From: Terriglobia bacterium
GTDB lineage: Bacteria; Acidobacteriota; Terriglobia; Terriglobales; Acidobacteriaceae
DNA: 40,447 nucleotides
Direction of reading: 5' to 3'
Assembly: GCA_020073015.1 (NCBI GenBank)
Contig: JAIQFZ010000027.1
Location: 1-40,447 of the forward strand
In this document: positions 5,270 to 32,989 of the stretch, piece after piece
Position numbering within the stretch: the stretch's first letter is position 1
How the letters are laid out: the number at the start of each line of letters is the position of its first letter
The notes under the pieces: model-generated
What the model was told of the DNA's origin: nothing
The model's database searches: none
The model's input: the letters and a program-made list of their open reading frames with translations, nothing else
Position numbers and translations under genes: made by a program

Positions 5270-5285
5270 TGTTCCACGTGGAACA
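5270..5285. promoter_or_regulatory. parS site 1
   Basis: TGTTCCACGTGGAACA is a perfect 16-bp palindrome matching the known chromosomal parS consensus (TGTTYCACGTGRAACA). ParB from the adjacent gene is the expected binder. Confidence 0.92.
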
Positions 5286-5312
5286 CTCCGCACATTTCGC
5301 GCAGGTTGAAAG

Positions 5313-5328
5313 TGTTCCACGTGGAACA
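5313..5328. promoter_or_regulatory. parS site 2
   Basis: Same 16-bp palindrome as site 1, with the symmetry extending to 20 bp (AGTGTTCCAC / GTGGAACACT, 5311-5330). It starts 43 bp after site 1. Confidence 0.92.
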
Positions 5329-5365
5329 CTACGCACGGCTGAGGGATATGCGCAGATATGAGAAA

Positions 5366-5381
5366 TGTTCCACGTGGAACA
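5366..5381. promoter_or_regulatory. parS site 3
   Basis: Third exact copy, starting 53 bp after site 2. The 320-bp gene-free stretch 5184-5503 holds these three sites and presumably the parA promoter; no convincing DnaA-box cluster was seen. Confidence 0.92.
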
Positions 5382-5503
5382 CTTTGGCTTCGCTTGGTTC
5401 CGCGCACGATTTTATGAAAGTTGTTCCACTCAGTACCGATTAATAGTTCCAATACTGGCCGCGATTTTCCACTTATGGCGGTTGTGGCTGGCAGTCTATC
5501 CCA

Positions 5504-6235
5504 CTATTGTTGATGTACCCCGATCGCCAATACCCTTGAGCGTGACTGCGGGACACTTATTGGTTGGTGCCAATCTATAGTGGGGGCCAGGTTGGGGAGG
5601 TTGGGAAGCTGGCTGGCACCTATAAGAAGAGCCAGACGGGCCGCTGGGGCCAGGAACCTGATGGCCAGGGGGAGGACGACATCGAAGCGCTCTACGGCTC
5701 GCAGAGTGACGACGTCGGCTTGGGGTGGGTTCTGGCTGACTAGCGTTTCAGCGCGTTCGGTGATTACATTGACGTCCGTCAATGTAAGAGATCGGGCTAC
5801 TTCGCGGAGGAAGGCGGCTTTCTTGTGATTGGATTCGATCAGGGTGAGGTGGATGTTCGGGGACCAGATCTTGACCGGGAGGGCTGGGAATCCGGCTCCG
5901 GAGCCCAGGTCCAATACTCGGGGACGCGGTGGAATCCCACTCATCGCAACTTGCGCGATGAGTGGGGCACCCGCTTCGGTGGATGGGGACAAACCCGGCG
6001 CGGACAGGAGTGTCCGCGCCACACGGTCCGCTGGGAACAGGTGGCGGGCGAGGAAGAAGCTTTCGCCGAAGTGGCGGGTCACGATTTCTTCGGGATCACG
6101 AACGGCGGTTAAGTTGATGCGGGCGTTCCAGCGGAGTAATAGATCGATGTATATCGATATTTGTTCGAGCGCGAGTGCAAGGAGCGGCTGATCGAGGAAG
6201 GGTACGAGCAGGGCGGCGATGCGGGCGGTGTCCAT
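5504..6235 (-). CDS. rsmG: 16S rRNA (guanine527-N7)-methyltransferase RsmG, with in-frame repeat insertion
   Basis: RsmG (GidB) uses S-adenosylmethionine to methylate G527 of 16S rRNA. The 243-residue product shows the family N-terminus (LLLRWNARINLTAVRDPEEI, HFGESFFLARHLFP), the SAM-binding glycine motif VLDLGSGAGFPALPVKI (about 107-123) and the following LIESNHKKAAFLREV. Between HLFP and the SAM motif, residues about 71-104 are an extra segment, RTLLSAPGLSPSTEAGAPLI and beyond, that RsmG proteins normally lack. It is encoded by a dispersed repeat also found at 33606, 35934 and 32990. The frame is kept, so the protein is probably functional with a longer loop. parA lies downstream. Confidence 0.9.
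   Translation of the reverse strand: MDTARIAALLVPFLDQPLLALALEQISIYIDLLLRWNARINLTAVRDPEEIVTRHFGESFFLARHLFPADRVARTLLSAPGLSPSTEAGAPLIAQVAMSGIPPRPRVLDLGSGAGFPALPVKIWSPNIHLTLIESNHKKAAFLREVARSLTLTDVNVITERAETLVSQNPPQADVVTLRAVERFDVVLPLAIRFLAPAARLALLIGASQLPNLPNLAPTIDWHQPISVPQSRSRVLAIGVHQQ
5924..6025. repeat. dispersed repeat inserted inside rsmG (family B)
   Basis: Contains GACAGGAGTGTCCGCGCCAC, the same core as at 33606-33632 and 35934-35957, plus an inverted repeat around CATCGCAACTTGCGCGATGA. It adds about 34 codons in frame. Confidence 0.75.
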
Positions 6236-6337
6236 GGGCGAGGTGGGGAGATTGTAAATCTCCCGGCAGGCCCGCAGCGGTGCATCGCCGACATTTGCCG
6301 TCCCTCAACAAATAATTCCAAAAAAAGATACCGGGTC

Positions 6338-6364
6338 TGTCGATCTGATTGCCCGTCGTTCGAC
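6338..6364 (+). promoter_or_regulatory. predicted ECF42-type promoter of first DGPF gene
   Basis: TGTCGA (6338-6343), a 17-base spacer, then CGAC (6361-6364). The same element with the same spacing stands before the second DGPF gene. As I recall, published ECF42 promoters have TGTCGA at -35 and CGA/TC at -10. The start would lie near 6371, giving a leader of about 70 nt. Confidence 0.72.
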
Positions 6365-6444
6365 GTCTAATTAGAGCCTGGGTTTGGGCGGTCGAGATCG
6401 GCCGGGGCCCAGCTCATAACACGAAACAACATGGAGACATGAAG

Positions 6445-6870
6445 ATGAGATGCATGGTGATCGTCAAGGCCAACAAGGATTCGGAGGCGGGCGTTCTCCC
6501 GAGCAAGGAGATCCTGACCGAGATGGGGAAGTTCAACGAAGAGCTGGTGAAGGCCGGCGTCATGCTGGCGGCGGAGGGGCTGCACGCGAGTTCGAAAGGG
6601 GTGCGCGTCAAGTTCTCTGGCGCAACCCGGACCGTGATCGACGGGCCGTTCACCGAGACGAAGGAGCTGATCGCCGGCTTCTGGCTGTGGCAGGTGAGGT
6701 CCATGGCCGAGGCGGTCGAGTGGCTCAAGCGTGCCCCGTTCGGCGGGGGAGTCGAGGTCGAGATTCGCCAGGTCTTCGAGGCGGAGGATTTTGGCGCCGA
6801 GCTTACGCCCGAGCTCAAGGCGCAGGAGGAGCGGCTGCGTACGGAGGTCGGGAAGCGAAAGGTCTTGTGA
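6445..6870 (+). CDS. YCII/DGPF-domain protein 1
   Basis: A 141-residue soluble protein of the YCII-related (DGPF) family, a small ferredoxin-like alpha+beta fold whose biochemical role is largely unknown. The hallmark DGPFTETKELIAGFWLWQV lies near residues 69-87, followed by EIRQVFEAEDFG. ATG 6445 is chosen because GGAG (6433-6436) is eight bases upstream, as in the paralogue; ATG 6439 is an alternative. The gene sits behind a TGTCGA-N17-CGAC promoter and is followed by a paralogue and an ECF42-type sigma factor. Genomic linkage of DGPF genes with ECF42 sigma factors is established, so regulation by that sigma factor is likely. Confidence 0.88.
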   Translation: MRCMVIVKANKDSEAGVLPSKEILTEMGKFNEELVKAGVMLAAEGLHASSKGVRVKFSGATRTVIDGPFTETKELIAGFWLWQVRSMAEAVEWLKRAPFGGGVEVEIRQVFEAEDFGAELTPELKAQEERLRTEVGKRKVL

Positions 6871-6947
6871 CGTCGCGACACCACTAAAAGGTTGCGACCT
6901 CCATCCTGACTACGGCGCTGAAGGGTGTGCGTGAGAACTTGTCTTTC

Positions 6948-7024
6948 GCCCCGCTGGGGCTTGTCGCGTTCCCGCTTTCCCACGGCTTGCGCCGTGGGCT
7001 GTATTCTTACGCCGCTTCGCGGCT
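6948..7024. repeat. dispersed palindromic cluster between the DGPF genes
   Basis: Three consecutive short hairpins: GCCCC/GGGGC (6948-6960), CCCACGGC/GCCGTGGG (6979-6998) and GCCGC/GCGGC (7011-7024). There is no gene in 6871-7182 apart from this cluster and the second promoter. Confidence 0.55.
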
Positions 7025-7074
7025 GGGAGCGTTACGTTTTGTTTCTACCGTTTCGCCGAAATTTTAGTTTTCAG

Positions 7075-7101
7075 TGTCGATTTTTCGGGACTTCGTTCGA
7101 C
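7075..7101 (+). promoter_or_regulatory. predicted ECF42-type promoter of second DGPF gene
   Basis: TGTCGA (7075-7080), 17 bases, CGAC (7098-7101). Bases after the -10 (TAGAGCC, CGGTCGAG, AGCCCAGCTCA) also match the leader of the first DGPF gene, so promoter and leader were duplicated with the gene. Confidence 0.72.
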
Positions 7102-7182
7102 GTGGAAATAGAGCCCAGGTTCAGACGGTCGAGGCCGTCCGGGAGCCCAGCTCACAATTCAAAACCAAAAGGAGATATGACG

Positions 7183-7584
7183 ATGAAATTCATGATGTTG
7201 GTCAAGCACGCCGAGAACTCTGGTCCTCCGCCCAAGGAACTCATGGACGCCATTGCGATACTCAGCGAAGAGGCGGTCAAGGACCACACGATGCTGGGGA
7301 GCGGCGGCCTCGCCCCAACTGCTCAAAGCACCCGCGTCCGGGTTTCGAAGGGGCAGCTGACCGTAACCGATGGGCCTTTCACCGAGGCCAAGGAGGTGGT
7401 CGGCGGCTATGCGCAGTTTGAGCTGCAATCGAAGGAGGAGGCGATCAAAGGAGCGGTGCGCTTCATGGAACTTCACAGGAAACACTGGCCGGGATGGGAG
7501 GGCGAGACCGAAATTCGCCAGATATTCGGGCCGGAGGACTTCGAACAATTCTGCAAGCAGCAGTTGCAGACAGCGACCAAGTAG
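7183..7584 (+). CDS. YCII/DGPF-domain protein 2
   Basis: A 133-residue paralogue of the preceding protein. It opens MKFMMLVKHAENSG, carries the family motif VTDGPFTEAKEVVGGYAQFEL and ends with EIRQIFGPEDFEQF. ATG 7183 lies eight bases after AGGAG; ATG 7177, two codons earlier, is also possible. The two DGPF proteins share fold and motif but differ much in the middle, so the duplication is old. It has its own copy of the TGTCGA-N17-CGAC promoter and is followed, after a repeat, by the sigma factor gene. Confidence 0.9.
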   Translation: MKFMMLVKHAENSGPPPKELMDAIAILSEEAVKDHTMLGSGGLAPTAQSTRVRVSKGQLTVTDGPFTEAKEVVGGYAQFELQSKEEAIKGAVRFMELHRKHWPGWEGETEIRQIFGPEDFEQFCKQQLQTATK

Positions 7585-7597
7585 ACGCACGATTCAC

Positions 7598-7716
7598 CAG
7601 GCTGCGGAAAAGTCGAATCGGTGACCTCAGCGGCTAAAAGCCGCCCATGGAAGCAGGGGCCTTATCGCAGCGCTAAAGCGCTGCGCCACCCCAAACCAGA
7701 CTTTTTCTGCAGCCTG
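7598..7716. repeat. MITE-like inverted repeat element (family E)
   Basis: Ends are near-perfect inverted repeats: CAGGCTGCGGAAAAGTC (7598-7614) and GACTTTTTCTGCAGCCTG (7699-7716). Inside are small hairpins (GCGGCTAAAAGCCGC, CAGCGCTAAAGCGCTG). A partial relative lies at 9152-9202. No coding capacity. Confidence 0.65.
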
Positions 7717-7776
7717 TCACCGCGCCAATCGCCTCGCCTTGCGCTCACGGATCGAAGCATGATGTGATCGGTAGTC

Positions 7777-9060
7777 GTGACGGCTACCGATACACATCGC
7801 GCGATCGACGCAGTTTGGAGGATCGAGTCCCCGCGGCTCATCGCCGGACTGATGCGGATGGTACGCGACGTTGGTCTGGCCGAGGATCTTGCCCAAGATG
7901 CTCTGGTCGCCGCGCTCGAGCGGTGGCCGCAGTCGGGCGTCCCGGATAACCCGGGCGCCTGGCTCATGGCTGCCGCCAAGCATCGGGCCATCGATCACTT
8001 CCGCCGGAACACGCGGCTCGAGCGCAAGCACGAGGAACTGGGCCGCGAGTTCGAAGCCAAGGAGATGGCTGTGCCGGATTTTGACACCGCCCTCGACGAT
8101 GAGGTTGGCGACGACCTCCTGCGCCTGGTGTTCATCTCCTGTCATCCGGTCCTCTCGACCGAGGCGCGGGTGGCGCTCACGCTCCGCTTGCTGGGAGGTC
8201 TGACGACCGAGGAAATCGCGCGCGCATTCCTTGCCCCGGAGCCGACCATCGCGCAGCGCATCGTCCGGGCGAAGCGGACTCTCGCCGAAAAGCGCGTCCC
8301 CTTTGAGGTTCCGCGCGGCGCTGAGCTTGCCGCGCGCCTGGCGTCGGTGCTCGAGGTCATCTACCTCATCTTCAATGAGGGCTACGCGGCGACCGCCGGG
8401 GACGACTGGATGCGGCCTGCGCTTTGTGAGGATGCCCTGCGTCTGGGGCGCATCCTGTCCGGGCTCGCTCCGCGGGAGCCCGAGGTCCACGGCTTGGTCG
8501 CGCTGATGGAAATACAGGCGTCGCGCTCGCGGGCGCGCGTGGGCCCGTCGGGAGAGCCGATCCTGCTCAACGATCAAAACCGCGCGCACTGGGATCAACT
8601 CCTCATCCGTCGTGGGGTGGCCGCGCTCGAGCGTGCCGAAGCGCTGGACAGTGTGCTGGGGCCTTACACGTTGCAGGCCGCGATCGCCGCCTGTCATGCC
8701 CGAGCGCGTACCCCGGCGGAGACGGACTGGGCGCACATCGTGACGCTCTACGAGGCGCTCGCCCAACTCGTGCCATCACCGGTTGTAGAACTGAATCGGG
8801 CGGTGGCGGTTGCGATGGCGTTCGGTCCGGCAGCGGGCCTCGAACTCGTCGAGGGTCTGGCGTCGGAGCCGGCGCTTCAGAACTACCACCTTTTGCCGAG
8901 CGTGCGCGGCGACTTCCTGGTCAAGCTCGGCCGCTTCGAGGAGGCTCGCGCGGAATTCGAGCGCGCGGCCGCCCTGACGCGCAACGCCCGTGAGCGCGAG
9001 TTACTGCTCGATCGCGCCCGTGCGCACGCACGCGGCTCGACGCCGGCTGAGCCCCAGTGA
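7777..9060 (+). CDS. ECF42-type RNA polymerase sigma factor with TPR-like C-terminal extension
   Basis: The 427-residue product has sigma-70 region 2 at about residues 15-80 (LAEDLAQDALVAALERWP, NPGAWLMAAAKHRAIDHFRR) and region 4 at about 125-175 (LTLRLLGGLTTEEIARAF, with helix-turn-helix EPTIAQRIVRAKRTLAE). A long helical C-terminal domain follows (LYLIFNEGY-like region, VELNRAVAVAMAFGPAAGLE, GRFEEARAEFERAAALTRN), the COG4941/DUF6596 TPR-like extension typical of ECF42. This group usually lacks an anti-sigma factor gene, and the C-terminal extension is thought to matter for activity. None is seen here. Start is GTG 7777, the first in frame. Two DGPF genes with matching promoters lie just upstream. 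No TGTCGA element was seen in front of the sigma gene itself. Confidence 0.92.
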   Translation: MTATDTHRAIDAVWRIESPRLIAGLMRMVRDVGLAEDLAQDALVAALERWPQSGVPDNPGAWLMAAAKHRAIDHFRRNTRLERKHEELGREFEAKEMAVPDFDTALDDEVGDDLLRLVFISCHPVLSTEARVALTLRLLGGLTTEEIARAFLAPEPTIAQRIVRAKRTLAEKRVPFEVPRGAELAARLASVLEVIYLIFNEGYAATAGDDWMRPALCEDALRLGRILSGLAPREPEVHGLVALMEIQASRSRARVGPSGEPILLNDQNRAHWDQLLIRRGVAALERAEALDSVLGPYTLQAAIAACHARARTPAETDWAHIVTLYEALAQLVPSPVVELNRAVAVAMAFGPAAGLELVEGLASEPALQNYHLLPSVRGDFLVKLGRFEEARAEFERAAALTRNARERELLLDRARAHARGSTPAEPQ

Positions 9061-9151
9061 CCAAGGCTGCGCGTGCCGCCGATGCGCCGCTGCACTCTAC
9101 CTCCGTTCCAACCGGCTCGGCCTAAAGGCGCGTTGTTCACAGACCACTTGC

Positions 9152-9202
9152 GGCATCGCTGAAGCGATGCCCTGATACTAATCGGGCGGCTTTCCGCAGC
9201 CT
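9152..9202. repeat. partial family E repeat
   Basis: Hairpin GGCATCGCT/AGCGATGCC (9152-9171) followed by TTTCCGCAGCCT (9191-9202), matching one end of the element at 7598-7716. Confidence 0.5.
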
Positions 9203-9228
9203 ACTGGCGTCGTGTCCCGTAAATTCGC

Positions 9229-9251
9229 GCCGGCGAGGGCGCCGGCGCTAC
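9229..9251. repeat. dispersed repeat, family D
   Basis: The core CGGCGAGGGCGCCGGCGCTA recurs inside mutS2 at about 18149-18170 and, diverged, at about 11803-11823. Confidence 0.6.
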
Positions 9252-9265
9252 ATTTCAATTCCTGC

Positions 9266-9430
9266 TCAGGCGGGCGTTGCTGCTCCGAGGGCTGCGGTGG
9301 CTAGCGTGCCGCCTAAGCCCATCGTCTCGACTGCGGACGAGGGGACGATGACCATGGAGCCGCGTTCTTTAATGGCCTCGCCCTTACACAACCGTTCACG
9401 GTCCAGTGGACGGGCCCTAGTGTAGGGCCG
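9266..9430 (-). pseudogene. possible C-terminal remnant of an SPFH/slipin-like protein
   Basis: Minus-strand frame ending at the TGA 9268-9266 reads GEAIKERGSMVIVPSSAVET and continues MGLGGTLATAALG. The VPSSAVETMGLGG pattern resembles the tail of SPFH/band-7 proteins. There is no start or SPFH domain upstream, so only a fragment remains. Identification is from memory and weak. Confidence 0.3.
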
Positions 9431-9447
9431 CTAGGAAGACCCGCAAT

Positions 9448-9722
9448 TCACAAGGCGGCGGTCGCGTTGTCGAAAGCCTTTTTCGCCGCCAGTTCTTCTG
9501 CGTTCTTGTTCCTCCCCAGTCGAGCACTTCGAGATGGACGCCATATTCCACGATTACGAACTGCACTTTATGTGGTGAGGGATCGCGCCAGGATACGGAG
9601 TTGCGTTGGCGGACGAGCTTTACTTCCGGACCCGCGGTCTTGTCTATATCCTGGTCGTCCAGCTTCCATAGGCTGGCTTCGTTGGGCCCTCCAAAGGAAA
9701 TCAGGAAAACGTTCCGTCCGTC
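9448..9722 (-). pseudogene. decayed gene fragment, possibly alpha/beta-hydrolase N-terminus
   Basis: A minus-strand frame reads NVFLISFGGPNEASLWKLDD and later SWRDPSPHKVQFVIVEYGVH, LEVLDWGG; the second part resembles the start of acidobacterial alpha/beta-hydrolases. After LEVLDWGG a frame change gives NKNAEELAAKKAFDNATAAL and a stop at 9450-9448. A TAG lies in frame just upstream of the fragment, next to a repeat at 9744-9786. No catalytic residues remain, so it is not functional. The region 9061-9796 holds only such fragments and repeats. Confidence 0.35.
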
Positions 9723-9743
9723 CCCGGGTCGCCCCTATGCTGT

Positions 9744-9786
9744 GGAGCTTTGCTCCGCTGGACAGCCGAGGGCGGCTGTCCCTACG
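9744..9786. repeat. dispersed repeat, family C
   Basis: GGAGCTTTGCTCCGCTGGAC followed by AGCCGAGGGCGGCTGTCCCT, two adjoining hairpins. Close copies occur at 11718-11762 and 29983-30025. Confidence 0.75.
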
Positions 9787-9796
9787 CGAACTTCAT

Positions 9797-11617
9797 TTAC
9801 TGCGTTTTTTTGTAGACCGAGCTGGAGCCGGCCTGGTTGAGGGAGAATTCGGTGACTTGTCCTTCCTGGTTGTGTTTGAAGTCCAGCGTCAAGCCGTTTT
9901 CTCCCTTGACTGCGAAGGTGGCGCCGCGCAATGGCTCGAGTTCCCAGACCTTCTGGTTCGGCAGAGTGACGGTGAGGATGTTGTCGGCCCGCACGGCAAC
10001 GACAAACTTAAAATCGGCGACCTGATAGACGCCCGCGAGCGGCTCCAAGAAGCTGCGCTCGCGCATGCGGCGATCGGGCATGCGGGTGAAGACGATGTCC
10101 TTCACGTTGGGCTCGAGCGACGAGGTCAGGCTGGAGATGTTGCCTTCCCAGTCGGTGAGAAACATGATCTCGGTTTCCTGCAGCAAATCGAGCGGGTCGT
10201 GGGGAACACGCCAGACATCGTAGTGCCAGTGCTGCGCGGTGGATTGCAGGGTGTGGTAGCTGATTTTGAGGTCGCGATCGTTGGCCGCTCGAGTTATAGC
10301 GACGGTGCCGTACGCGGGATTGGAATACTCGCCGACGTACTCATCAATCGAGTGAGAAAACTGGGTGTTGTCGCGGCGGGGCACGTAGTTCTTTTCGCGG
10401 GCCTCGTCGTCGGACTTCTTGAAGGCGAGATAACGGTCATGCTGGCGCTTGTTCCAGTCGACCGGCTCGAGGCCGAGCATGCGGTCATTGATGTTGTAGG
10501 CGAGCACTTCGCGCAGGCTGCTGCCCTCCATGTTGAGCAGGACGACGCTGCCGATGTTGTCGTCGGGCAGAAAGGAGATCAGGAGCGAGAAGCCGTCGAG
10601 GTTTCCGCCGTGCTGCACGAACTTGTGGCCGCGGTAGGTGGTGACGAACAGGCCCATCCCGTAATGGGCGTAACCGATCTCGGGATCGAGATCGGAGCTG
10701 CGCATGACCATCTGCGGACTAATCATCTGGCGGATATTCGCCTCGGAAATGATTTGATGGTCGTCGTGCTTGCCGCGATTGAGGTACATGAGCAGGTACT
10801 GAGTCATGTCCGTGAGGTTGGAGACGATGGCGCCGGCGGGACCGAGCGCCGGATCTCCGGGATAGATGGGCGCCTCGTGCGCGACTTCCTTGTCGTCTTT
10901 GCGGTAGGGATGGGCGACGTCGGTGGCGGACTTGAAGGACTCACCGAAGTTGAAGCCGGAACTGCGCATGCCGAGTGGCTGGAAAATGCGGGCTGTCACG
11001 GCGTCTTCCCAAGTGCTGCCGGCTAGTTTGCCAGCAAGGTAGCCGGCCGTCATGAACATCAGATTGTTGTATTGGAATTCGCGGCGCAGATCGCGGTTGG
11101 GTTCCAGGTAGCGCAGCCGCGCGTACATTTCTTCGCGCGTGAGGCCGGAGCGATACCAGGTGGCATCGTGGCGCGGCAGGCCGGTGCGGTGGGTCACGAG
11201 GTCGCGCGGCGTGACGCGGGCGGTGAGCACGTCGTCGTAGAGCCGGAAGTCGGGCAGGTACTCGCGCACCGGCTTGTCCCAATCGAGCTTGCCTTCGCTG
11301 GCGAGGGTGCCGAGCGTGGCCACGGTGAACGACTTGGTGATCGAGGCGATCGGGAACAGGGTTTGGTCGGTCACCGGCAAGTTGTTCTTCACGTCGCGCA
11401 GGCCGTAGCTCTTGCTCACGACCACCTTGCCGTCTTTCACGATGGCGATGGCTGCGCCCGGAACCTTCCACTCCTGCATGACGCGCTGGACGTAAACGTC
11501 GAAATCGTCGAGCAGGCCGGCAGCGGGCTTGGCAGGTGCCTTCTTCTCAGCAGCCGCGAGCGAAGAGGCCAAGCAAAGGATAAGCAGGAGAAAGCGAGTA
11601 AGGAACCATTTGCGCAT
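9797..11617 (-). CDS. exported serine hydrolase of the beta-lactamase (class C) family
   Basis: The 606-residue protein starts with a signal peptide (MRKWFLTRFLLLILCLASSL, then AAA). The catalytic domain carries the SxxK motif SITK near residue 93 (PIASITKSFTVATLG), the YxN motif YNN near 184 (EFQYNNLMFMTAGYLAGKL) and the third motif HGG (FVQHGGNLDGFS) near 340. After about residue 430 a DUF3471-like lipocalin-type domain follows (YVGEYSNPAYGTVAI, LAGVYQVADFKF). Such proteins can be D-aminopeptidases, esterases, PBP-like or lactamases; the sequence does not decide which. It acts in the periplasm. It is transcribed alone: a strong terminator stands upstream (11678-11705) and repeats flank it. 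Confidence 0.88.
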   Translation of the reverse strand: MRKWFLTRFLLLILCLASSLAAAEKKAPAKPAAGLLDDFDVYVQRVMQEWKVPGAAIAIVKDGKVVVSKSYGLRDVKNNLPVTDQTLFPIASITKSFTVATLGTLASEGKLDWDKPVREYLPDFRLYDDVLTARVTPRDLVTHRTGLPRHDATWYRSGLTREEMYARLRYLEPNRDLRREFQYNNLMFMTAGYLAGKLAGSTWEDAVTARIFQPLGMRSSGFNFGESFKSATDVAHPYRKDDKEVAHEAPIYPGDPALGPAGAIVSNLTDMTQYLLMYLNRGKHDDHQIISEANIRQMISPQMVMRSSDLDPEIGYAHYGMGLFVTTYRGHKFVQHGGNLDGFSLLISFLPDDNIGSVVLLNMEGSSLREVLAYNINDRMLGLEPVDWNKRQHDRYLAFKKSDDEAREKNYVPRRDNTQFSHSIDEYVGEYSNPAYGTVAITRAANDRDLKISYHTLQSTAQHWHYDVWRVPHDPLDLLQETEIMFLTDWEGNISSLTSSLEPNVKDIVFTRMPDRRMRERSFLEPLAGVYQVADFKFVVAVRADNILTVTLPNQKVWELEPLRGATFAVKGENGLTLDFKHNQEGQVTEFSLNQAGSSSVYKKTQ

Positions 11618-11677
11618 TATCGGCCTCCGCAGAAGCCCGCCATTTTCCCACGCGGGATCGGGAGAAGCAAACGGGAG

Positions 11678-11705
11678 AAAAAAGGGGCGCGATCGCTCGC
11701 GCCCC
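11678..11705 (-). terminator. rho-independent terminator downstream of rpoD
   Basis: On the minus strand GGGGCGCGA-GCGA-TCGCGCCCC is followed by six T. It lies about 120 nt past the rpoD stop, beyond a repeat cluster. Confidence 0.75.
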
Positions 11706-11717
11706 TGATGCTATTCT

Positions 11718-11823
11718 GCGGAGCTTTGCTCCGCTGGACAGCCGGGGGCGGCTGTCCCTACGTGGCAGATGCCAACTGCGAGGGCAAGATGCCCTCGCGA
11801 CAGCCGGCGGGACGCCGGCGCTA
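11718..11823. repeat. tandem family C and family D repeats after rpoD
   Basis: A family C copy (GGAGCTTTGCTCCGCTGGAC and GGCGGCTGTCCCTACG) is followed by a hairpin GCGAGGGCAAGATGCCCTCGC and a family D-like GGCGGGACGCCGGCGCTACA. It fills the space between the rpoD stop and its terminator. Confidence 0.7.
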
Positions 11824-11827
11824 CAGC

Positions 11828-13522
11828 TTAGTCTCTTACGCCGTCCATGAACGCTCGCAGTTTTCTGGAGCGCGAGGGGTGGCGCAGCTTGCGCAGCGCT
11901 TTCGCTTCGATCTGGCGGATGCGTTCTCTCGTCACTGCGAACGACTGGCCTACTTCTTCTAACGTGTGCTCGCTGCCGTCTTCGAGGCCGAAGCGCATCT
12001 TGATTACTTTTTCCTCGCGCGGGGTCAGCGTGCGCAACACCTGGCCGGTTTGATCTTTCAGGTTGACGTTGATGACGGCCTCGGCGGGAGAGACGACCGC
12101 GCGGTCCTCGATGAAGTCGCCCAGGTGCGAATCTTCCTCTTCGCCGATGGGCGTTTCGAGGGAGATGGGCTCCTGCGCGATCTTCAGAACCTTGCGGACT
12201 TTCGCCACCGGAATGTCCATCCGCTTGGCGATTTCCTCCGACGTCGGTTCGCGTCCGAGTTCCTGCACCAGCTGACGCGACGTGCGGATCAGCTTGTTGA
12301 TCGTTTCGATCATGTGCACGGGGATACGAATCGTACGCGCCTGATCAGCAATTGCACGAGTAATCGCCTGCCGAATCCACCACGTGGCATAAGTTGAAAA
12401 CTTATAGCCGCGGCGGTATTCGAACTTGTCCACGGCTTTCATCAGGCCGATGTTGCCTTCCTGAATCAGGTCGAGGAACTGGAGGCCGCGATTGGTGTAC
12501 TTCTTGGCAATCGAGACGACCAGGCGCAGGTTGGCTTCGATGAGCTCGCGCTTGGCCTGCTCGGCGTCCATGTCGCCCTGGATGATCTCGCGCTGGGTGC
12601 GCTTGAGGTCCTGGAACAAAACGCCGGCTTCGACTTCGAGCTTCTCGAGTTCGCCGCGGACGGCACGCGACTGCTTCTTGTATTCCTTGCGCTGCTCTTC
12701 GCTGCGCGTGGCCTCGGCCCGCTTCTCCAGGTTCTGGATCTGGCGGTCGAGCGAACGCATGCCGTCGACGGTGCGGTTGACGCGGTCGATGAGGCGTTTG
12801 CGTTCGTTGTTGGTGAAGCCGAGTTTGCGCACCGCGAGCGACACGCGCACGACGGCGCGGGCCAGGTTGATGCGGTAGCGGCGATGGTCGCGGGGACGCT
12901 TCTTCAGGTTGACCGCGGCCAGCTTTTCCACGAGCGGTGGAACTTTCTTGTAGGCCTTGTCGAGCGCGTAGATCTTGCTGAGAAAGTCCTTCAGACGTTT
13001 GTCGACGATCTCGTCGGTGATTTCCTCTTCGTCGAAGGTGACCAGCTCCTTGATGGAGCGGACGCCTTTTTCGAGGTCCTCACCCAGGGCGAGGAGTTCG
13101 CGGATCACGATCGGCGAGCGCGAAAGCGCCTTCAGAACGCGGTTTTGGCCGCGCTCGATGCGCTTGGCGATTTCGACTTCGCCTTCGCGCGTGAGCAGGG
13201 GCACGGTTCCCATCTCGCGCAAATACATGCGGACGGGGTCATTGGTTTTTTCCAGGGCGCCGGGGGTTAAGTCGAGTTCGACGTCCTCGGAGCCTTCCTC
13301 TACTTCTTCGAATTTTTTTTCCAGATCGGTCGAAGGCATCTTCGAGCTTTCGAGTACATCGATGCCTTGCGTGCCGATCGTGGTCAGCAGATCGTCGAGG
13401 TCTTCAGGAGAGTGCACATCGTGCGGGATGAGGTCATTGACCTGGTCATAGGTGAGGTATCCCTTCTCTTTTCCTGCGTCGATCAGCTTTTTAATATCCT
13501 CGTACTTGTCGTCAAGTGCCAA
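11828..13522 (-). CDS. rpoD: primary RNA polymerase sigma factor RpoD (sigma-70)
   Basis: The 564-residue housekeeping sigma factor directs core RNA polymerase to most promoters. Region 1.1 occupies the first ~80 residues, region 1.2 is at [20 protein letters not shown], and a non-conserved region with coiled-coil character follows. Region 2 has [20 protein letters not shown] and [20 protein letters not shown] with [19 protein letters not shown]. Region 3 includes [14 protein letters not shown]. Region 4 has [15 protein letters not shown] and the helix-turn-helix [20 protein letters not shown], ending in [19 protein letters not shown]. It lies downstream of dnaG on the same strand, a common arrangement. 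The 215-nt gap between them has only a weak palindrome (TTGTGCAAGCGCACAA, 13593-13608). Confidence 0.97.
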
Positions 13523-13737
13523 GACAGATTATCCTCGGGACGGCCGCCGGTTCGCGGACGCCAACTATTCAGCGGTAGGGGTTGTTACGGAGTTGTGCAA
13601 GCGCACAAACCATACAATTGTAGCAGGTTAGGCTTGATTCCCGCCAGTCTCGCAGGTCTAATTGTTTCGCCGCCGTCTGGACGTTCCCTTCCGCTTGCTT
13701 ACTTAGATGTTGGCGCGGGCTGATTCGTTCCAGGGTC

Positions 13738-15720
13738 TCAGGACGCCTGGTCGGCTTTTTCGTCCAGTCCCGGGTCCATCAGAGCCCGCTTCAGACGCAC
13801 TTTTTCTTGCAGGAGCGCCTGCCGTTCGTCCATCGAGAGGCCGGGGCGTAGGAGCTGGCGTTGGCTGACCTCCAGCCGCCGGCGCAGATGGATGCGGCGC
13901 AACGCCCGTACCGCGCCTTCCAGCGTCTCGGGGGTGAGTTCCTCTTCTTCGTGCATCAGGATGGACGCGAGCAGGCGACGGTCATCCTCGGTCTTTGGCA
14001 GTTCCATCGCATCGGGCGTTTCGGGTCCCGCCTCCAGCAGGGCTTCGATCAGGGATTGGGAGGCCAGTCCTTCATGGAGGTGCTCCGACTGCAGCGCATA
14101 CTGCGCCTGGCGCGCGGGGTCGAATCCTTCTTCGGCGCCATCGCGGGCAGAGAGGTGTCCTTCTCCTGATTGCATCTGGGTGGCGGAGGCGAGTGCCCGG
14201 ATCAGGATGCGCTCCGCGCCGGTGACCTGGGCCTCTGCGGGAGCCTTGAGCTGCGCTGTCGAACGGGTGACGGCTGCATGCTTGAGTTCCTGACGGAGCA
14301 TGGACGAGTCGATGCCCAGTTTCTGCGAAATTTCCATGGCCAGTTCGTCGCGGACAATCCGGCTGGGTACGCGCTGGATATGCGGAAGCAGGTGATTCAG
14401 CGCTTTCACCTTGCCCTCGGGGCTGCGAACCGGGAACTGTGCGCGGGCGCGGTCGATCAAGTAGTCGAAATACTTTTGCGAATGCTTCAGGGCGTCGGCG
14501 TAGGCATCTTTGCCCTTGCGGCGGATGAAGAGGTCGGGATCGAAGCCGGTCTCGAGCGTCACCACGCGAATGTTGAATTCCTCTTCGACGAGGAGGCCTA
14601 GGGTGCGCTCGGTGGCGCGGGCGCCGGCGGTGTCGGGATCGAAGTTGACGATGACGTTCTTGGAGAAGCGGCCGAGCAACTTGGCCTGCAGTTCGGTGAA
14701 GGCCGTGCCGGAACTGGCGATCACGTTGTGAAAACCAGCGGCGTAAACGGAAATGCAGTCCATCTGGCCTTCGACCAGGATGGCGTAATCGAGTTTGCGA
14801 ATGGCTTCTTTGGCGTGGTCGAGATTGAAGAGCACGCGTGACTTGGAGTAGATGGGCGTTTCGGGAGAGTTCAGATATTTGGGGCCAGATTTTTCGTCGG
14901 TCGAAAGCGTGCGTCCGGTGAAGGCGATGACTTTGCCCTGGTCGTTGGCGATGGGGAACAGGACGCGGTTGCGGAATTTGGAGTAGATGGTCGGAGAAGC
15001 AGCTTCTGGCTTCTGGCTACTAGCTTCTGGCGAGAGGCTCTCGGCTGCAGACTTTAGGCTCTCCGCATTCGCCTCCCCAGGCTTGTCATGCTGAGCGGAG
15101 CGAAGGACCTGCTGTTCCTGAGGGCTGACGGCTGAGGGCTGACGGCTGTCTTCCTTCCACGAGAACAGACCGCTCTCGCGGAGAAGTTCTTCGTCGAACT
15201 CGCGGCGCAGGGCATCGCGCAGCAGGAAGCCGGAGTCGGGGGCGTAGCCGATGCGGAAGCGGGCGATGGTCTCCTGATCGAGGCCGCGGCTTTTGAGATA
15301 CTCGCGGGCGTTGGCGCCTTCGGGACGCTTCAGGCACTCCTGAAAGAATGTGACGGCGCGCTCATGGACGTCGAGCAGAGCCATGCGGAGCTTCGCTTCG
15401 CGCGCTTCCTGGGGGCTGGAGAAGCTGACCTTCGGCATGGGCACGCCCAGCTTCTGCGCGATCAGGCGGACGGCTTCGGGGAAGGTGATGTTCTCGACTT
15501 TCTGCACGAAGCTGAAGACGTCTCCGGAGGCGCCGCAGCCGAAGCAGTGATAGAACTGGCGCGTGGCGTGGACGGAGAACGACGGCGTCTTTTCGTTGTG
15601 GAAGGGACAGAGGCCCGAGAAGTTCTGCGCGCCCGCCTTCTTCAGCTTGACGTAATCGCCCACGATGCGGACGATGTCGGCCTGCTGTTTGAGGGCTTCT
15701 TTGAAATTGTCAGAGGTCAT
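13738..15720 (-). CDS. dnaG: DNA primase DnaG, with in-frame repeat insertion
   Basis: DnaG makes RNA primers at the replication fork. The 660-residue protein has the CHC2 zinc finger (C38, H41, C59, C62 in GLCPFHNEKTPSFS and FYHCFGCGASGDVFSF), the primase core (FRNRVLFPIANDQGKVIAFTGR, the Toprim ILVEGQMDCISVYAAGF and VNFDPDTAGARATERT) and a C-terminal helicase-binding region. Residues about 191-245, between the zinc/N-terminal core and the FRNRVLFPI strand, are an extra Ser/Glu/Ala-rich segment (RQPSAVSPQEQQVLRSAQHD and more). It is encoded by two adjacent dispersed repeats and is absent from typical DnaG. The reading frame is intact and all catalytic motifs are present, so a working enzyme with a loop is likely. 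Confidence 0.95.
   Translation of the reverse strand: MTSDNFKEALKQQADIVRIVGDYVKLKKAGAQNFSGLCPFHNEKTPSFSVHATRQFYHCFGCGASGDVFSFVQKVENITFPEAVRLIAQKLGVPMPKVSFSSPQEAREAKLRMALLDVHERAVTFFQECLKRPEGANAREYLKSRGLDQETIARFRIGYAPDSGFLLRDALRREFDEELLRESGLFSWKEDSRQPSAVSPQEQQVLRSAQHDKPGEANAESLKSAAESLSPEASSQKPEAASPTIYSKFRNRVLFPIANDQGKVIAFTGRTLSTDEKSGPKYLNSPETPIYSKSRVLFNLDHAKEAIRKLDYAILVEGQMDCISVYAAGFHNVIASSGTAFTELQAKLLGRFSKNVIVNFDPDTAGARATERTLGLLVEEEFNIRVVTLETGFDPDLFIRRKGKDAYADALKHSQKYFDYLIDRARAQFPVRSPEGKVKALNHLLPHIQRVPSRIVRDELAMEISQKLGIDSSMLRQELKHAAVTRSTAQLKAPAEAQVTGAERILIRALASATQMQSGEGHLSARDGAEEGFDPARQAQYALQSEHLHEGLASQSLIEALLEAGPETPDAMELPKTEDDRRLLASILMHEEEELTPETLEGAVRALRRIHLRRRLEVSQRQLLRPGLSMDERQALLQEKVRLKRALMDPGLDEKADQAS
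14986..15150. repeat. two dispersed repeats inserted inside dnaG (families F and A)
   Basis: Family F: iterated CTTCTGGCTTCTGGCTACTA-like units (about 14998-15030), related to 38655-38745. Family A: TGTCATGCTGAGCGGAGCGA and AGGGCTGACGGCTGAGGG (about 15084-15150). Together they add about 55 codons without breaking the frame. Confidence 0.75.
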
Positions 15721-15973
15721 GGGCGGCGCACACTACTCCACTTCATTGTGAGGCTTGGGGGCGTTGAGGGGAATATAGCAGGGACGGGATTGCTGTGGGA
15801 AAGGTGTGGAATACAGAGGTATTGCGTTGAGGTCCGAGGAAAAGTGGGCTCTTCTAGTGCGCAATTCGGGAATGGAGTAGAGGTCCCTCGACTCGCCGTC
15901 GCGTTCGCTCCGGCTCCCTCGGGATCACAGGATTTGAACGGGAACTCGCGGGGATGCTGTGTTTATTTGGTGT

Positions 15974-16390
15974 TTATTTCACTTCTTCGCGGGCCTCTCG
16001 TTTTTTGTCATGCTGAGCGGAGCGGGACGATTCGCGGAGCGAATCGTTCGGCGGAGTCGAAGCACCCCTACTCGCTCGTGAGTCTTTCATCCAGGGGTAC
16101 CAGTCGCGCGCCAGATCCAGCCAGTGCGGATTGACGGCTTCGATTAGCACGATCTTCTTTGATCTCCGCCAGCCTTTCAGTTGCTTTTCGCGGGCAATAG
16201 CTTTGTGAACGTCGTCGAGCGATTCCCAGTAGAGGAGACGTTCGACCTGGTACTTGTCAGTGAACCCCTCGATTTTGTGAAACTTGTGCTGGAAGGCCCG
16301 CTTGTGGAGGTTGCTGGTGATGCCAATGTAGAGGGTTCCCAAGAGGCTGCCCATGATGTAGACGCAGTATGTCTTTCGCTCGCTGTGCAT
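15974..16390 (-). CDS. GIY-YIG nuclease-domain protein with repeat-derived tail
   Basis: The first ~95 residues form a single GIY-YIG domain: the paired motif YCVYIMG and TLYIGITSNLHKRAFQHK (with the catalytic Arg in LHKR), then GFTDKYQVERLLYWES and AIAREKQLKGWRRSKKIVLI, which contains the expected Glu (AREKQLK). Small UvrC N-terminal-like proteins of this type are common and their substrates are usually unknown. From about residue 105 (SRASRGASTPPNDSLRESSR to the end) the protein is encoded by a dispersed family A repeat, so the natural C-terminus was probably replaced when the repeat arrived. Another family A copy stands immediately upstream of the ATG. Confidence 0.85.
   Translation of the reverse strand: MHSERKTYCVYIMGSLLGTLYIGITSNLHKRAFQHKFHKIEGFTDKYQVERLLYWESLDDVHKAIAREKQLKGWRRSKKIVLIEAVNPHWLDLARDWYPWMKDSRASRGASTPPNDSLRESSRSAQHDKKREAREEVK
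16005..16077. repeat. family A repeat overlapping the GIY-YIG gene 3' end
   Basis: GTCATGCTGAGCGGAGCG, an inner palindrome GATTCGCGGAGCGAATC, then GGCGGAGTCGAAGCACCCCT. It supplies the last ~30 codons of the gene. Confidence 0.75.
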
Positions 16391-16391
16391 A

Positions 16392-16470
16392 GGAGGGAGT
16401 AGGGGTCCTTCGACTCCGGTGCCCGTTCACTTCGTGAACGGGCACCTACGCTCAGGAAGACAAGGGTAGG
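16392..16470. repeat. family A repeat upstream of the GIY-YIG gene
   Basis: GGGAGTAGGGGTCCTTCGAC, then the palindrome GCCCGTTCAC-TTC-GTGAACGGGC, then ACGCTCAGGAAGACAAGG. It is inverted relative to the copy at 16005-16077, so the gene is bracketed by opposed copies. Confidence 0.75.
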
Positions 16471-16536
16471 AGGATCGTGATGAAAGAAGCAGTGATTGCG
16501 GTCACGTCCCCCGTGTTCGATTTTCTGGAACGAACT

Positions 16537-19128
16537 CTACACCCTTAATTCCACCACCGTCGCTCCGCCGCCACCTTCGTTCTGTGGGGGCTCGCTTACT
16601 GTGGCTACGTGGGGGTGCTTCTGCAGGTATTGGCGGAGGGCTTTGCGGAGGATGCCCATGCCGCTGCCGTGGACGATGCGGACTTTGGGCATGCCGGCTA
16701 AGAACGCACGGTCGACGAACTTCTCGACTTCGCTGGTGGCTTCGTCGACGGTGCGTCCGATGACGTTGATTTCGGTGGGCATGGCTAGGTCGCTGAGGTC
16801 GCTTTGGAGCGAGACGCTGATGCCGCGGGCGCGGGCGGCCTTCACGGGGGAGTCCGCAATGTGCGCTATGACCTCGGCGATGTCTTCGCGGGCGATGCGC
16901 ATTTTCATAGAACCGATTTCGACTTCGAAGTGCTGGTCGTCGATTTTCTTTTTGACTATGGCGGCGCGGCCCATCGATTTGAGTTTTACAGTGTCGCCTT
17001 CGGCTACGTGTTTCACTAGCGCGGGCTGGGCGTTGGGGTCATCGCGATCGGCGCCGGTGGCGTGCGCTACTACCGCGGAATCGAATTGCTCGCGGAATTC
17101 TCGGCGGAGTTTGGCGATGCGGCGTTCGGCGTCTTTGGAGAGCTTTTGTGCGGCGGCTCGGTCCTGGACGGCGTTGACGGCTTCGCGGGCGTGATATTCG
17201 AAGTCGCGGAAGAGCGCTTCCAGTTTCTTTTCCATCTCACGAACTTTGTTTTGTTGCTCTTTGCGGCCCTCGGTGGCGAGTTGCGATTTTTCGCGCCCCA
17301 GTTCCTGCTCGCGAGCCTGCATACGGGCGCGCTCTTTTTCCAGGTCGCGGAGATCGGCGTGGAGGCGGTCGAGGAAGCGGGCTACGTCTTGCGTCTGCGA
17401 TCCCAGGCGGGAGCGGGCGGAGGTGATGATGGCGGGATTCAGGCCGAGGCGCTGCGCGATGTTGATTCCGGCGGAGGCTCCCGGGACGCCGATTTTCAGC
17501 TCGTAGGTGGGCTGCAGCGTGGCTTCGTCGAAGCCTACGGCGGCGTTGATTACGCCGGTCGTGTTCGCTCCGTAGACCTTGAGCGACGTGTGATGCGTGG
17601 AAATCACGGTCATGCACCCGAGCTTGCGGAAATGTTCGGCGATGGCTACAGCCAGAGCAGCGCCTTCTTCGGGATCCGTGGCAGACCCTAGTTCATCGAG
17701 CAGCACCAGCGAATTCGCAGTGGCGGTGCGGGAGATGAAATCGATGTTGGTGACGTGGGCGGAGAAGGTGGAGAGATTCTGCTCGATGGATTGATAGTCG
17801 CCGATGTCGGCCAGGATGGCGTCGAACACCGGCAGGTCGGCGCGGTCGGCGGGGACGGGGATGCCGGATTGTGCCATCAGGGCGAGCAGGCCGAGCGTTT
17901 TCAGGGTAACGGTTTTGCCGCCGGTGTTGGGGCCGGTGATGACGAGTTGGCGGCGGGCGCCTTCCAGTTCGACGGTGACCGGGACAATGTGCGCGTTTTT
18001 CAGTTTCAGGTTGCGTTCGAGCAGCGGGTGGCGGGCTCGGTGGAGGACCAGCCGGGCTTCGCCCGGCTCGGACGGCCGAAGGCGGCCGTCCCCACGTGGG
18101 TCTTGCGCTGGTTCGGGTTGGGGACGGCGGGGCGCCGTCCCGACTGCCGGCGAGGGCGCCGGCGCTACGGTGGTACCTGCGGGCTCGGACGGGCGAGGAC
18201 GCCCGTTGCTCCACAAACTAACCGCTACGCAGTTGTAGTCTTCGGCGAAGCGGGCTTTGGCGAATTGGAGTTCCAGTTCGGCGAGGATGTCGGCGGCGGC
18301 CAGGATCGCTTCGGCGTTCTCTCCGATGGTGCGGGTCATCTCCAGGAGGATGCGGTGGATTTCAGATTGCTCTTCGTCTAACAGGCGGACGAGTTCGTTG
18401 TTCTGCTCGATGGTTTCGAGGGGCTCGACGAAGACGGTTTGGCCGCTGGAGCTTGCGCCATGGACTACGCCTTGGACGCGGCGCTTCTGCTCGACTTTGA
18501 CGGGGATGACGAAGCGCTCGCCGCGTATGCTAATCAACTCATCTTGCACGGTGCCGCCTTCGGCGAGACGGCGGAGATAGCCGCGCAGCGATTCCTGGAT
18601 CAGGCGCCGTTGTCTTTCGATCTCGCGGCGGATGCGGCTGAGTTCGGACGAGGCGCGATCGTCGAGCGTGCCGTCGGGCAGGATCTTGTTGCGAAACGTG
18701 CGCAGAAATGCGGTGAAATCCTGAATGCCGGTGGAGAGTGCGTTGACGGCGGTCCACTCGCTGCGCATCGCAGTGGGAGGCTGGCGGACGATTTCGCGCC
18801 ATTCGGCGGCGCGGTCGGCGATGAGGACGATGTCGCGGATCTCGCTGGTTTCGAGAGCGGCTCCGGCGATACGGGATTTTTCGATCAGCTTGGCGACTTC
18901 GGGCAGACCAGTGAATTCAAAGCGTCCACCCACGCGGCGGAACGCGCGGATTTCCGTGGTGAGCTGCTGCTGCGTTTCAATCCAGGCGCGATCGAGGGAG
19001 GGCGTGAGTTCTGCGATGCGATGCTGGCCGAGAGGCGAAGACGCGTAGCCCTGCAACAATTCGCGCAGCGGATCGAACTCGAGCAGTCGGGCGCTGGTGT
19101 GTATCCCCGGGTTGGGTACGAACGACAT
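16537..19128 (-). CDS. mutS2: MutS2-family endonuclease/ribosome-rescue ATPase with in-frame repeat insertion
   Basis: MutS2 proteins suppress homologous recombination, and in some bacteria act on stalled ribosomes. The product (863 residues from ATG 19128) has the MutS core and clamp regions, Walker A GPNTGGKTVTLKTLG near residue 400, Walker B LVLLDELGSATDPEEG, a long coiled coil (KERARMQAREQELGREKSQL) and a C-terminal Smr nuclease domain (INVIGRTVDEATSEVEKFVD, VRIVHGSGMGILRKALRQYL). Residues about 304-358 (PRPSEPAGTTVAPAPSPAVG and on), just before ARHPLLERNL, are a Pro-rich insertion encoded by dispersed repeats. ATG 19128 is chosen because MSFVPNPGIHTSARLLEFDP begins the family homology; the frame is open to 19731 but that part contains a repeat. 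Confidence 0.93.
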   Translation of the reverse strand: MSFVPNPGIHTSARLLEFDPLRELLQGYASSPLGQHRIAELTPSLDRAWIETQQQLTTEIRAFRRVGGRFEFTGLPEVAKLIEKSRIAGAALETSEIRDIVLIADRAAEWREIVRQPPTAMRSEWTAVNALSTGIQDFTAFLRTFRNKILPDGTLDDRASSELSRIRREIERQRRLIQESLRGYLRRLAEGGTVQDELISIRGERFVIPVKVEQKRRVQGVVHGASSSGQTVFVEPLETIEQNNELVRLLDEEQSEIHRILLEMTRTIGENAEAILAAADILAELELQFAKARFAEDYNCVAVSLWSNGRPRPSEPAGTTVAPAPSPAVGTAPRRPQPEPAQDPRGDGRLRPSEPGEARLVLHRARHPLLERNLKLKNAHIVPVTVELEGARRQLVITGPNTGGKTVTLKTLGLLALMAQSGIPVPADRADLPVFDAILADIGDYQSIEQNLSTFSAHVTNIDFISRTATANSLVLLDELGSATDPEEGAALAVAIAEHFRKLGCMTVISTHHTSLKVYGANTTGVINAAVGFDEATLQPTYELKIGVPGASAGINIAQRLGLNPAIITSARSRLGSQTQDVARFLDRLHADLRDLEKERARMQAREQELGREKSQLATEGRKEQQNKVREMEKKLEALFRDFEYHAREAVNAVQDRAAAQKLSKDAERRIAKLRREFREQFDSAVVAHATGADRDDPNAQPALVKHVAEGDTVKLKSMGRAAIVKKKIDDQHFEVEIGSMKMRIAREDIAEVIAHIADSPVKAARARGISVSLQSDLSDLAMPTEINVIGRTVDEATSEVEKFVDRAFLAGMPKVRIVHGSGMGILRKALRQYLQKHPHVATVSEPPQNEGGGGATVVELRV
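18053..18215. repeat. dispersed repeat cluster inserted inside mutS2
   Basis: Successive hairpin-forming units: GCCGGGCTTCGCCCGGC, CGGCCGAAGGCGGCCG, GGACGGCGGGGCGCCGTCC, CCGGCGAGGGCGCCGGCGCT and GGGCGAGGACGCCC. Together they add ~50 codons in frame. One unit is family D. Confidence 0.75.
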
Positions 19129-19167
19129 GCGAATTGATGGTACAACGGAATAAGGATTGAGTTTCGA

Positions 19168-19241
19168 GGAGGGAGTAGGGGTGCTTCGACTCCGCAGCGT
19201 GATTCGCTTCGCGCATCGCTCTGCTCCGCTCAGCAGGACAA
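19168..19241. repeat. family A repeat upstream of mutS2
   Basis: AGGGAGTAGGGGTGCTTCGA at one edge, GCTCCGCTCAGCAGGACA at the other, with a short inverted segment GATTCGCTTCGCGCATC between. Confidence 0.65.
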
Positions 19242-19362
19242 TCGTAGAAAGGCCTGCGGTGGGACTACGGATTCTCCCGCTATGGACCATCCCGGGGACC
19301 GGCACTCTGGTTACTTGCCAGCGGTCTAGTTTCGCGGTGCAATTGCACCTGCGGAGCGAACT

Positions 19363-19743
19363 ATGGGACGTGCTTTCGGCTTTATCGGTACGATCGTCAC
19401 GATGGCGATCGGGATGTACATCTATTCTGTGCAGATTAAAACGCTGTCGCCATCCACCGGAGGCGGCAATTCTGAAGAAGTGGCCACCATCGCGGGCGTG
19501 AAGAATGATCTGATCGGGATCGCCAACGCCGAGCGCGGCTATCTTGCGTCCCAGGGGAAGTATGCTTCGCTCGATGAACTGATTTCGGGCAACTACCTCA
19601 CCATCAAGAGTGAGCGTCCGCCTTACGTTTACGATGTTGAGATTACTGACAGCAGCTTTCGTGCGATGGCTACTCGCACTACGAAAGGTGCTCCCGCGCA
19701 GCTCTGGATTACCGAGAACATGCAAGTCCAAGCGTCGGATTGA
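19363..19743 (+). CDS. pilin-like single-pass membrane protein of unknown function
   Basis: A 126-residue protein. Residues 5-25 (FGFIGTIVTMAIGMYIYSVQI) form one membrane segment; the exported part contains IANAERGYLASQGKYASLDE, a pattern seen in type IV pilin/pseudopilin-like proteins, where an N-terminal helix precedes a conserved AERxYxxxxGxYxSLxEL stretch. A canonical prepilin peptidase site (G-FTLxE) is missing, so it is probably not a classic pilin. It stands alone on the plus strand between mutS2 and dtd, both on the minus strand. Confidence 0.7.
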   Translation: MGRAFGFIGTIVTMAIGMYIYSVQIKTLSPSTGGGNSEEVATIAGVKNDLIGIANAERGYLASQGKYASLDELISGNYLTIKSERPPYVYDVEITDSSFRAMATRTTKGAPAQLWITENMQVQASD

Positions 19744-32979: not shown

Positions 32980-32989
32980 GTGATTGTGT

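Follow-up and report, generated by a model that had tools for sequence, protein, structure and literature searches.

The genome studied here (Terriglobia bacterium, GCA_020073015.1; 5.5 Mb in 245 contigs) belongs to the Acidobacteriaceae, and the nearest named relatives of its DnaG are found in Acidobacteriales and Candidatus Sulfotelmatobacter genomes. One of its contigs (C181, JAIQFZ010000027.1), called the window below, was analysed over its whole length of 40,447 nucleotides (nt). Three conserved genes on its minus strand, rsmG, dnaG and mutS2, each contain an extra segment that is built of repeats and keeps the reading frame. An earlier note, made from the letters of the window, had proposed such segments, and we found them within about 6 bases of the positions proposed, with open frames and conserved flanks. 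As the note had also held, near-exact copies of the insert repeats occur elsewhere in the window and the genome.

The rsmG gene (16S rRNA methyltransferase G; 5504..6235, minus strand) was identified by its GidB domain (Pfam, 2.9e-38). Alignment of orthologues places an insert of about 33 codons (about residues 70-102; 5930..6028, minus strand) between ESFFLA and VLDLGSGAGFP, and residues 63 and 74 of the solved homologue 1xdz align with residues 63 and 107 of the query. The insert holds a hairpin of the repetitive extragenic palindromic (REP) type, GTGG-CGCGGACA-CTCC-TGTCCGCG (family R1; 5999..6022, minus strand), which is read as VARTLLSA. The other hairpin element of this insert, E6, CCCACTCATCGC...GCGATGAGTGGG (5929..5966), has a 13-bp stem with one mismatch and is likewise a member of a repeat family.

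The primase gene dnaG (13738..15720, minus strand; Pfam DNAG_N, zinc ribbon and Toprim) carries an insert of about 52 codons (about residues 192-243; 14992..15147, minus strand), placed by orthologue alignment between GLFSWKE and IYSKFRNR. Residues 86 and 89 of the solved primase 4e2k correspond to residues 191 and 244 of this DnaG, a difference of about 50 residues. Two heptamer arrays flank an E4 element in the insert. The first array, from the repeat listing of the window, is made of AGCTTCT/GGCTACT units (14998..15031); the second, read directly from the sequence, is made of TCAGCCG/TCAGCCC units (15117..15147) and encodes SRQPSAVSPQ. The E4 element, TGTCATGCTGAGCGGAGCGAAGGA (15084..15107, plus strand), gives VLRSAQHDK when read on the minus strand. 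The insert is predicted to be a disordered loop. In the AlphaFold model (28 aligned sequences), residues 192-240 fall below 50 in the predicted local distance difference test (pLDDT), between strands at 186-188 and 245-247, and the ten-residue flanks have mean pLDDT values of 88 and 80.

The mutS2 gene (minus strand; Pfam MutS_V and Smr) has its longest open reading frame (ORF) at 16537..19731. The gene probably starts at about 19128, downstream of the TTG that opens this ORF; this position is taken from the gene caller and from the point where relatives begin to match, and because of it the repeats at 19167-19258 probably lie outside the MutS2 protein. The insert of about 53 codons (about residues 507-559; 18055..18213, minus strand) sits between DYNCVAV and RLVLHRARHP in the orthologue alignment. 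It contains, all on the minus strand, a GTGG-tagged hairpin of R4 type at 5 mismatches (18189..18214; read as WSNGRPRPS), the R3 REP hairpin GTAG-C-GCCGGCG-CCCT-CGCCGGC (18146..18168; read as VAPAPSPA), of which the same 23-mer recurs at 9229-9251, and the R4 REP hairpin GTGG-GGACGGCCG-CCTT-CGGCCGTCC (18070..18095; read as RGDGRLRPS).

The core repeats of this genome are GTAG/GTGG-tagged hairpins, i.e., REPs of the GTAG superfamily together with their REP-associated tyrosine transposases (RAYTs). A search of 840,447 bases for a GTAG or GTGG tag, a spacer of 0-1 nt, an exact stem of 8 bp and a loop of 3-5 nt returned 65 hairpins vs. one in a Markov-3 simulation, and 12 other tetranucleotide tags gave 1-8 hairpins each. 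The GTRG hairpins form the families R1 (pattern GTRG-N-GCGGACACTCYTGTCCGC), R2, R3, R4, and E7. A de novo k-mer scan for repeats was too strict at a threshold of 12 copies and was rerun at 6. Neighbouring REPs within 150 nt of each other (n = 21) are arranged +- in 16 cases, ++ in three, -- in two and -+ in none; in eight R1 pairs the two members are 26-50 nt apart, and only 42 of 153 copies sit in inverted +- pairs. E4 (TGTCATSCTGAGCGRAGCGAAGGA) is an allied repeat. The dnaG insert was scanned for a GTRG-tagged hairpin and none was found; E4 and the heptamer arrays are without a clean tagged hairpin, and they belong neither to the tagged REPs nor to the Rickettsia palindromic elements (RPEs). 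The heptamer-E4 composite is common to DnaG and Tgt. The consensus sequences of R1a and R4 are free of stop codons in all six frames, those of R1b, R2, R3, E7, and E8 in five, and that of E4 in four.

The comparison with RPEs that the earlier note had drawn stands as far as repeats compatible with translation are concerned, as the frames are open through conserved genes. It does not extend to the class of repeat, since the tags here are GTAG/GTGG with a RAYT and not CGTC. Membership in the RPEs was rejected, with only one CGTC-tagged hairpin in 840 kb.

The R1 core occurs 142 times in this genome (G000), the highest number among 101 genomes. It was found in 22 of 23 congeners, and counts within the genus range from 0 (G022) to 142, some of the genomes being incomplete. 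Beyond the genus, 14 of the family's 37 remaining genomes (from 37 genera) carry it, the 14 genomes of the sister family lack it, and one of 26 other genomes of the class has it at a single site. The reversed R1 pattern occurs zero times in this genome and six times in all 101.

The REP families are linked to RAYT genes in the same genome. Eight matches to Y1_Tnp (Pfam) were found, seven of them above the cut-off. Five Y1_Tnp ORFs were tested against NCBI models; four passed the REP-associated tyrosine transposase model NF047646 and one (L086) matched nothing. Inverted R3-type hairpins bracket the transposase domain of L085, L087 is surrounded by its own tagged hairpins, and an inverted R1 pair adjoins L088. 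E7-like hairpins lie on both sides of L081, a weak association at 4-5 mismatches. Among the RAYT loci examined, none was seen associated with R2.

The search for RsmG, DnaG, and MutS2 covered 100 relatives (23 congeneric), and after duplicates and rows without anchors were dropped the linkers of 27/29, 54/72, and 24/48 rows, respectively, were used. With our own genome left out, repeat or heptamer matches numbered 15 in 2,961 nt of RsmG linker vs. one in 18,795 nt elsewhere in the gene, 33 in 5,943 nt vs. none in 96,948 nt for DnaG, and 13 in 1,998 nt vs. one in 56,937 nt for MutS2. This sums to 61 matches in 10.9 kb of linker vs. two in 172.7 kb of the rest, where matches are counted per family (one stretch can be scored twice, by R2 and by R4, whose motifs are related) and heptamer arrays account for 22 of the 61. 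Because the matches concentrate in the linkers and hardly occur elsewhere in the same genes, the linker repeats are not due to chance, and the position between conserved blocks given in the earlier note agrees with the alignment. Linker lengths vary from 12 to 90 residues in RsmG, 7 to 75 in DnaG (7-13 in distant relatives, Granulicella and others) and 13 to 62 in MutS2. A known repeat was recognised by the DNA scan in 11/27, 25/54, and 8/24 distinct linkers of the three proteins; the remaining linkers have diverged, are short, or contain no repeat that is known.

Such linkers could be hypervariable loops under low constraint, lengthened by replication slippage, their likeness to dispersed repeats being incidental. 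Slippage would fit their spread of 7 to 90 residues between species, the more than half of distinct linkers in which no known repeat was recognised, and the heptamer arrays of DnaG, which are slippage-prone. It sits badly with the near-exact copies, within the linkers, of mostly intergenic families of 23-26 nt, and with the 61 to 2 distribution of matches. Slippage alone was rejected for the REP families on the concentration of dispersed-repeat matches in linkers, and we consider this alternative very improbable.

The content of a given site differs between relatives. The RsmG site of congeners holds R1 (VARTLLSA), E4 (CHPERSEGP), heptamer (STGYWVLGTG, SSKLVAQSSKLEAQ) or R3 (RAPSPA) peptides, and in some nothing known. 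A total of 17 genes were aligned, 16 of the 27 repeat-bearing genes described below, chosen as recognisable, plus MutS, which entered only through a 6-mismatch match under the looser limits. Besides the three window genes, twelve were compared with four relatives (G001, G008, G010, G015), and ClpB (22 rows) and Tgt (20 rows) with the genus. The repeat position is variable between relatives in all 17, and 11 have a short site in some relative: DnaG, RsmG, MutS2, CarB, LarC, a LeuC-like protein, a GT2 glycosyltransferase, MutL, PurL, ClpB, and Tgt. The site is short in three of the four relatives (G008, G010, G015) for CarB and for LarC, where it is histidine-rich instead, in two (G008, G010) for the LeuC-like protein, with another repeat-like segment about 20 residues on in G010, and in one (G015) each for GT2, MutL, and PurL. 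ClpB has a short native site (DGKAGH-like) in 11 of 22 rows and an ADKSVR-type peptide in five. Tgt (L282:18777-19988, on G000 C235) carries the heptamer-E4 composite at G000:C235:19331-19396 plus an R4-like piece, and its linker is short in G012. Whole inverted R1-type hairpin pairs, like the paired REPs known as REPINs, lie in frame inside MoeA and the GT2 glycosyltransferase (L214:759-830, L211:1380-1455). One correction to the earlier note is needed: close relatives carry inserts as well, with variation at these sites. An assembly artefact was rejected because inserts of this kind recur at matching positions in relatives that were assembled separately.

Variable repeat-like linkers are also shared by the repair proteins MutL (L193), MutS (L197), and MutS2 of the window, which echoes a repair-gene bias noted in PMC3733652.

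Repeats strongly avoid genes, yet do not spare them. The strict count covered 81 pieces (the window and 80 other stretches; 1,489,740 bases, 27% of the genome) with 1,234 genes called by our own script. Of 216 copies, 167 are intergenic, 14 lie at gene edges and 35 are inside 27 called genes. At a coding density of 81.7% about 176 of the 216 would be expected in genes vs. the 35 observed (binomial p about 8e−97, the copies being not fully independent). Looser limits over 840 kb put 28 of 158 copies in genes. The families differ: 18 of 72 R1 copies are inside genes vs. three of 71 for E4, E7, and E8 together (Fisher p = 0.0006), and R3 (5 copies) and R4 (8 copies) are few, with half or more inside genes. 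Some qualifications apply to these numbers. The three window genes had been identified before the count and contribute 5 of the 35 inside copies, an upward bias; the gene caller missed rsmG, and its addition by hand raised the number of inside copies by two from the window. The strict set includes unproven copies in L189, L196, and some in L267, and L273 is the Y1_Tnp ORF itself; in the looser set, L191 and L186 contribute doubtful matches, with 6 and 4 mismatches, respectively. Gene names come from NCBIfam models. Matches above the cut-off are MutL, MutS, ValS, AnmK, CarB, D-Ala ligase, LarC, TrmFO, PurL, BshB1, ClpB, Tgt, and RpiA; those below it are MoeA, GT2, HyuB-like, LeuC/aconitase-like, and DapA-like. 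The 18 R1 copies inside genes show no detectable phase preference (frame by orientation counts 6, 3, 4, 4, 1, 0; chi-square p = 0.16) and no detectable preference in orientation (13 vs. 5, p = 0.096), so that the non-random reading phase raised in the earlier note was not detected.

The inserts could have been domesticated, the added peptides modulating the proteins, e.g., the replication and repair proteins DnaG, MutS, MutL, and MutS2, and being selected for. Several replication and repair genes carry inserts, and PMC3733652 speculates in the same direction for other species. Metabolic and tRNA genes carry inserts too, however, and neither the sequence nor the length of the inserts is conserved between congeners. 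The DnaG insert is predicted to be disordered, and no phase bias was detected. Domestication therefore seems to us an improbable account.

We think it highly likely that mobile REP hairpins, together with allied short repeats, make up the inserts, having landed in surface linkers of housekeeping genes and been retained because the frame stayed intact. A RAYT of the same genome, itself flanked by the same kind of hairpin, would move the GTAG/GTGG-tagged hairpin as a single unit or as an inverted pair (REPIN). Insertions that break a gene would be purged by selection. An insertion into a flexible linker with a net length that is a multiple of three would be tolerated, because the hairpins are without stop codons in most or all six frames, and would be translated as a disordered loop; survival may reflect near-neutrality. 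The inserted copy would then decay by point mutation and gain neighbouring repeats (other REPs, E4, heptamer arrays), and the linker may be partly deleted and refilled, which would leave different repeat peptides at one position in congeners.

Several points weigh against this explanation. A RAYT does not obviously account for E4 and the heptamers, which are without a clean tagged hairpin, and the L088 match lies near a contig end and is below the Pfam threshold (21.4 vs. 23 bits). Transposition and translation are inferred from sequence, and the purging of gene-breaking insertions from the depletion of copies in genes. Three candidate repeats proved to be native motifs, GLMPSGSKD of GlyS and MLSESQE of PurL in the looser set and VDRSIHGPD of RmlB in the strict set. 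The alignment covered 16 of the 27 genes, leaving out L189, DapA-like, D-Ala ligase, L272, L280, RpiA, BshB1, L267, L196, RmlB, and L273. Six of the 17 aligned genes (TrmFO, ValS, MutS, HyuB, AnmK, MoeA) have no empty site among the four relatives, MoeA of G010 being cut off. On a genus tree of the DnaG core (22 rows, 16 labelled), which is poorly resolved, the contents of the RsmG site need seven parsimony changes and are partly clustered (seven changes vs. 9.7 in shuffled labels; as low in 8/200); for G009, G004, and G015 the label was assigned from peptide similarity, not from a DNA match. As the labels need seven changes yet are partly clustered, both descent and change play a part.

The clustering bears on another history, in which each site received one ancestral insertion that spread by descent or recombination between relatives and then mostly decayed, with little new insertion. 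Many congeners have the E4 of DnaG in one and the same frame (VLRSAQDDK), and the MoeA and TrmFO segments look ancestral. Against this, R1, E4, heptamer or R3 types occupy the RsmG site according to the species, with the seven changes just given, and the ADKSVR-type peptide of ClpB is confined to 5 of 22 rows while 11 keep the native short site. Such a history is probably true for part of the sites; as a general account it appears unlikely. Under the explanation we favour, the insertion of mobile repeats into linkers with survival of the frame, one extension can be offered tentatively, as possible rather than probable. The fixed linkers of DnaG, RsmG, MutS2, Tgt, and others may be reusable landing pads in one genus, repeatedly loaded with unrelated mobile repeats that are turned over between species. 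The RAYT/REP load would then write new disordered peptides into up to about 100 proteins, a figure extrapolated from 27% of the genome, where repeats lie in 27 called genes (including a few false ones). An insertion preference might be at work alongside survivor bias.

Outside the three genes, R1 REP copies are listed among the window repeats at 33607-33632 and 35931-35956, with an inverted copy at 32985-33010, and R2 REP copies are found as direct repeats of the window at 9735-9786, 11711-11762, and 29975-30026. A 153-nt direct repeat, 92% identical, lies near the left contig end (1509-1661 and 2999-3151). Three copies of TGTTCCACGTGGAAC are present at 5270-5389, between rsmG and the ORF at 4371-5183, and a ParB/Noc homologue is at 3013-4155. 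We take the TGTTCCACGTGGAAC copies to resemble parS sites, and the ORF at 4371-5183 would presumably be parA by gene order. From the parS-like repeats and the ParB/Noc homologue, the window may be near the replication origin.

The 24 congeneric genomes offer a replicated series for watching mobile DNA become protein sequence in bacteria. The series could separate insertion bias from selection and gauge the amount of added loop that an essential enzyme tolerates, and the spread of R1 copy number across congeners is a natural series for REP expansion. For annotation, a peptide such as VLRSAQDDK, when met in a protein of this group, probably derives from a repeat.

REPIN/RAYT systems of Pseudomonas and E. 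coli consist of tagged hairpins, inverted doublets and RAYTs flanked by their own hairpins. The system described here is alike in its tagged hairpins, inverted pairs and RAYTs with their own hairpins. PMC3733652 (2013) describes REPs as mostly intergenic; in this genome 35 of 216 copies are in called genes. The same paper reports intragenic GTAG and CGTC repeats, most of them in Opitutus terrae and Rickettsia conorii and with repair genes included, and in-frame REPs in genes of Opitutus terrae, Thauera, Xanthomonas, and others. It notes GTGG variants, inverted dimers and RAYT association, suggests flexible linkers or loops, and gives one shared intragenic site, in recB of two Xanthomonas species. 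Since intragenic REPs were reported there, the kind is already known. Our cases are like those in having GTRG hairpins, stems mostly of 6-9 bp, inverted dimers, RAYTs, single or clustered in-frame copies, and replication and repair genes among the hosts. They differ in that Acidobacteria are not named among the intragenic examples in the portion consulted, and that here one genus holds different families at the same sites, non-REP repeats included. In line with the earlier note, no report of intragenic REPs in Acidobacteria was found among the top matches of a literature search that took in few subscription papers. RPE-1, RPE-4, and RPE-6 of Rickettsia are also in-frame palindromic repeats within genes that are likely functional, but the tag of RPE-4 and RPE-6 is CGTC, and CGTC repeats are without a dedicated transposase according to PMC3733652, unlike the GTAG/GTGG tags with RAYTs found here. 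Enterobacterial RU elements (PMC2759123) are likewise small mobile sequences in genes that give new peptides; they are units of 103-168 bp, resemble miniature inverted-repeat transposable elements (MITEs), and belong to another phylum. New in the present case are the host group, how many core genes are involved, the occurrence across the genus of different families at fixed sites, and the role of non-REP repeats.

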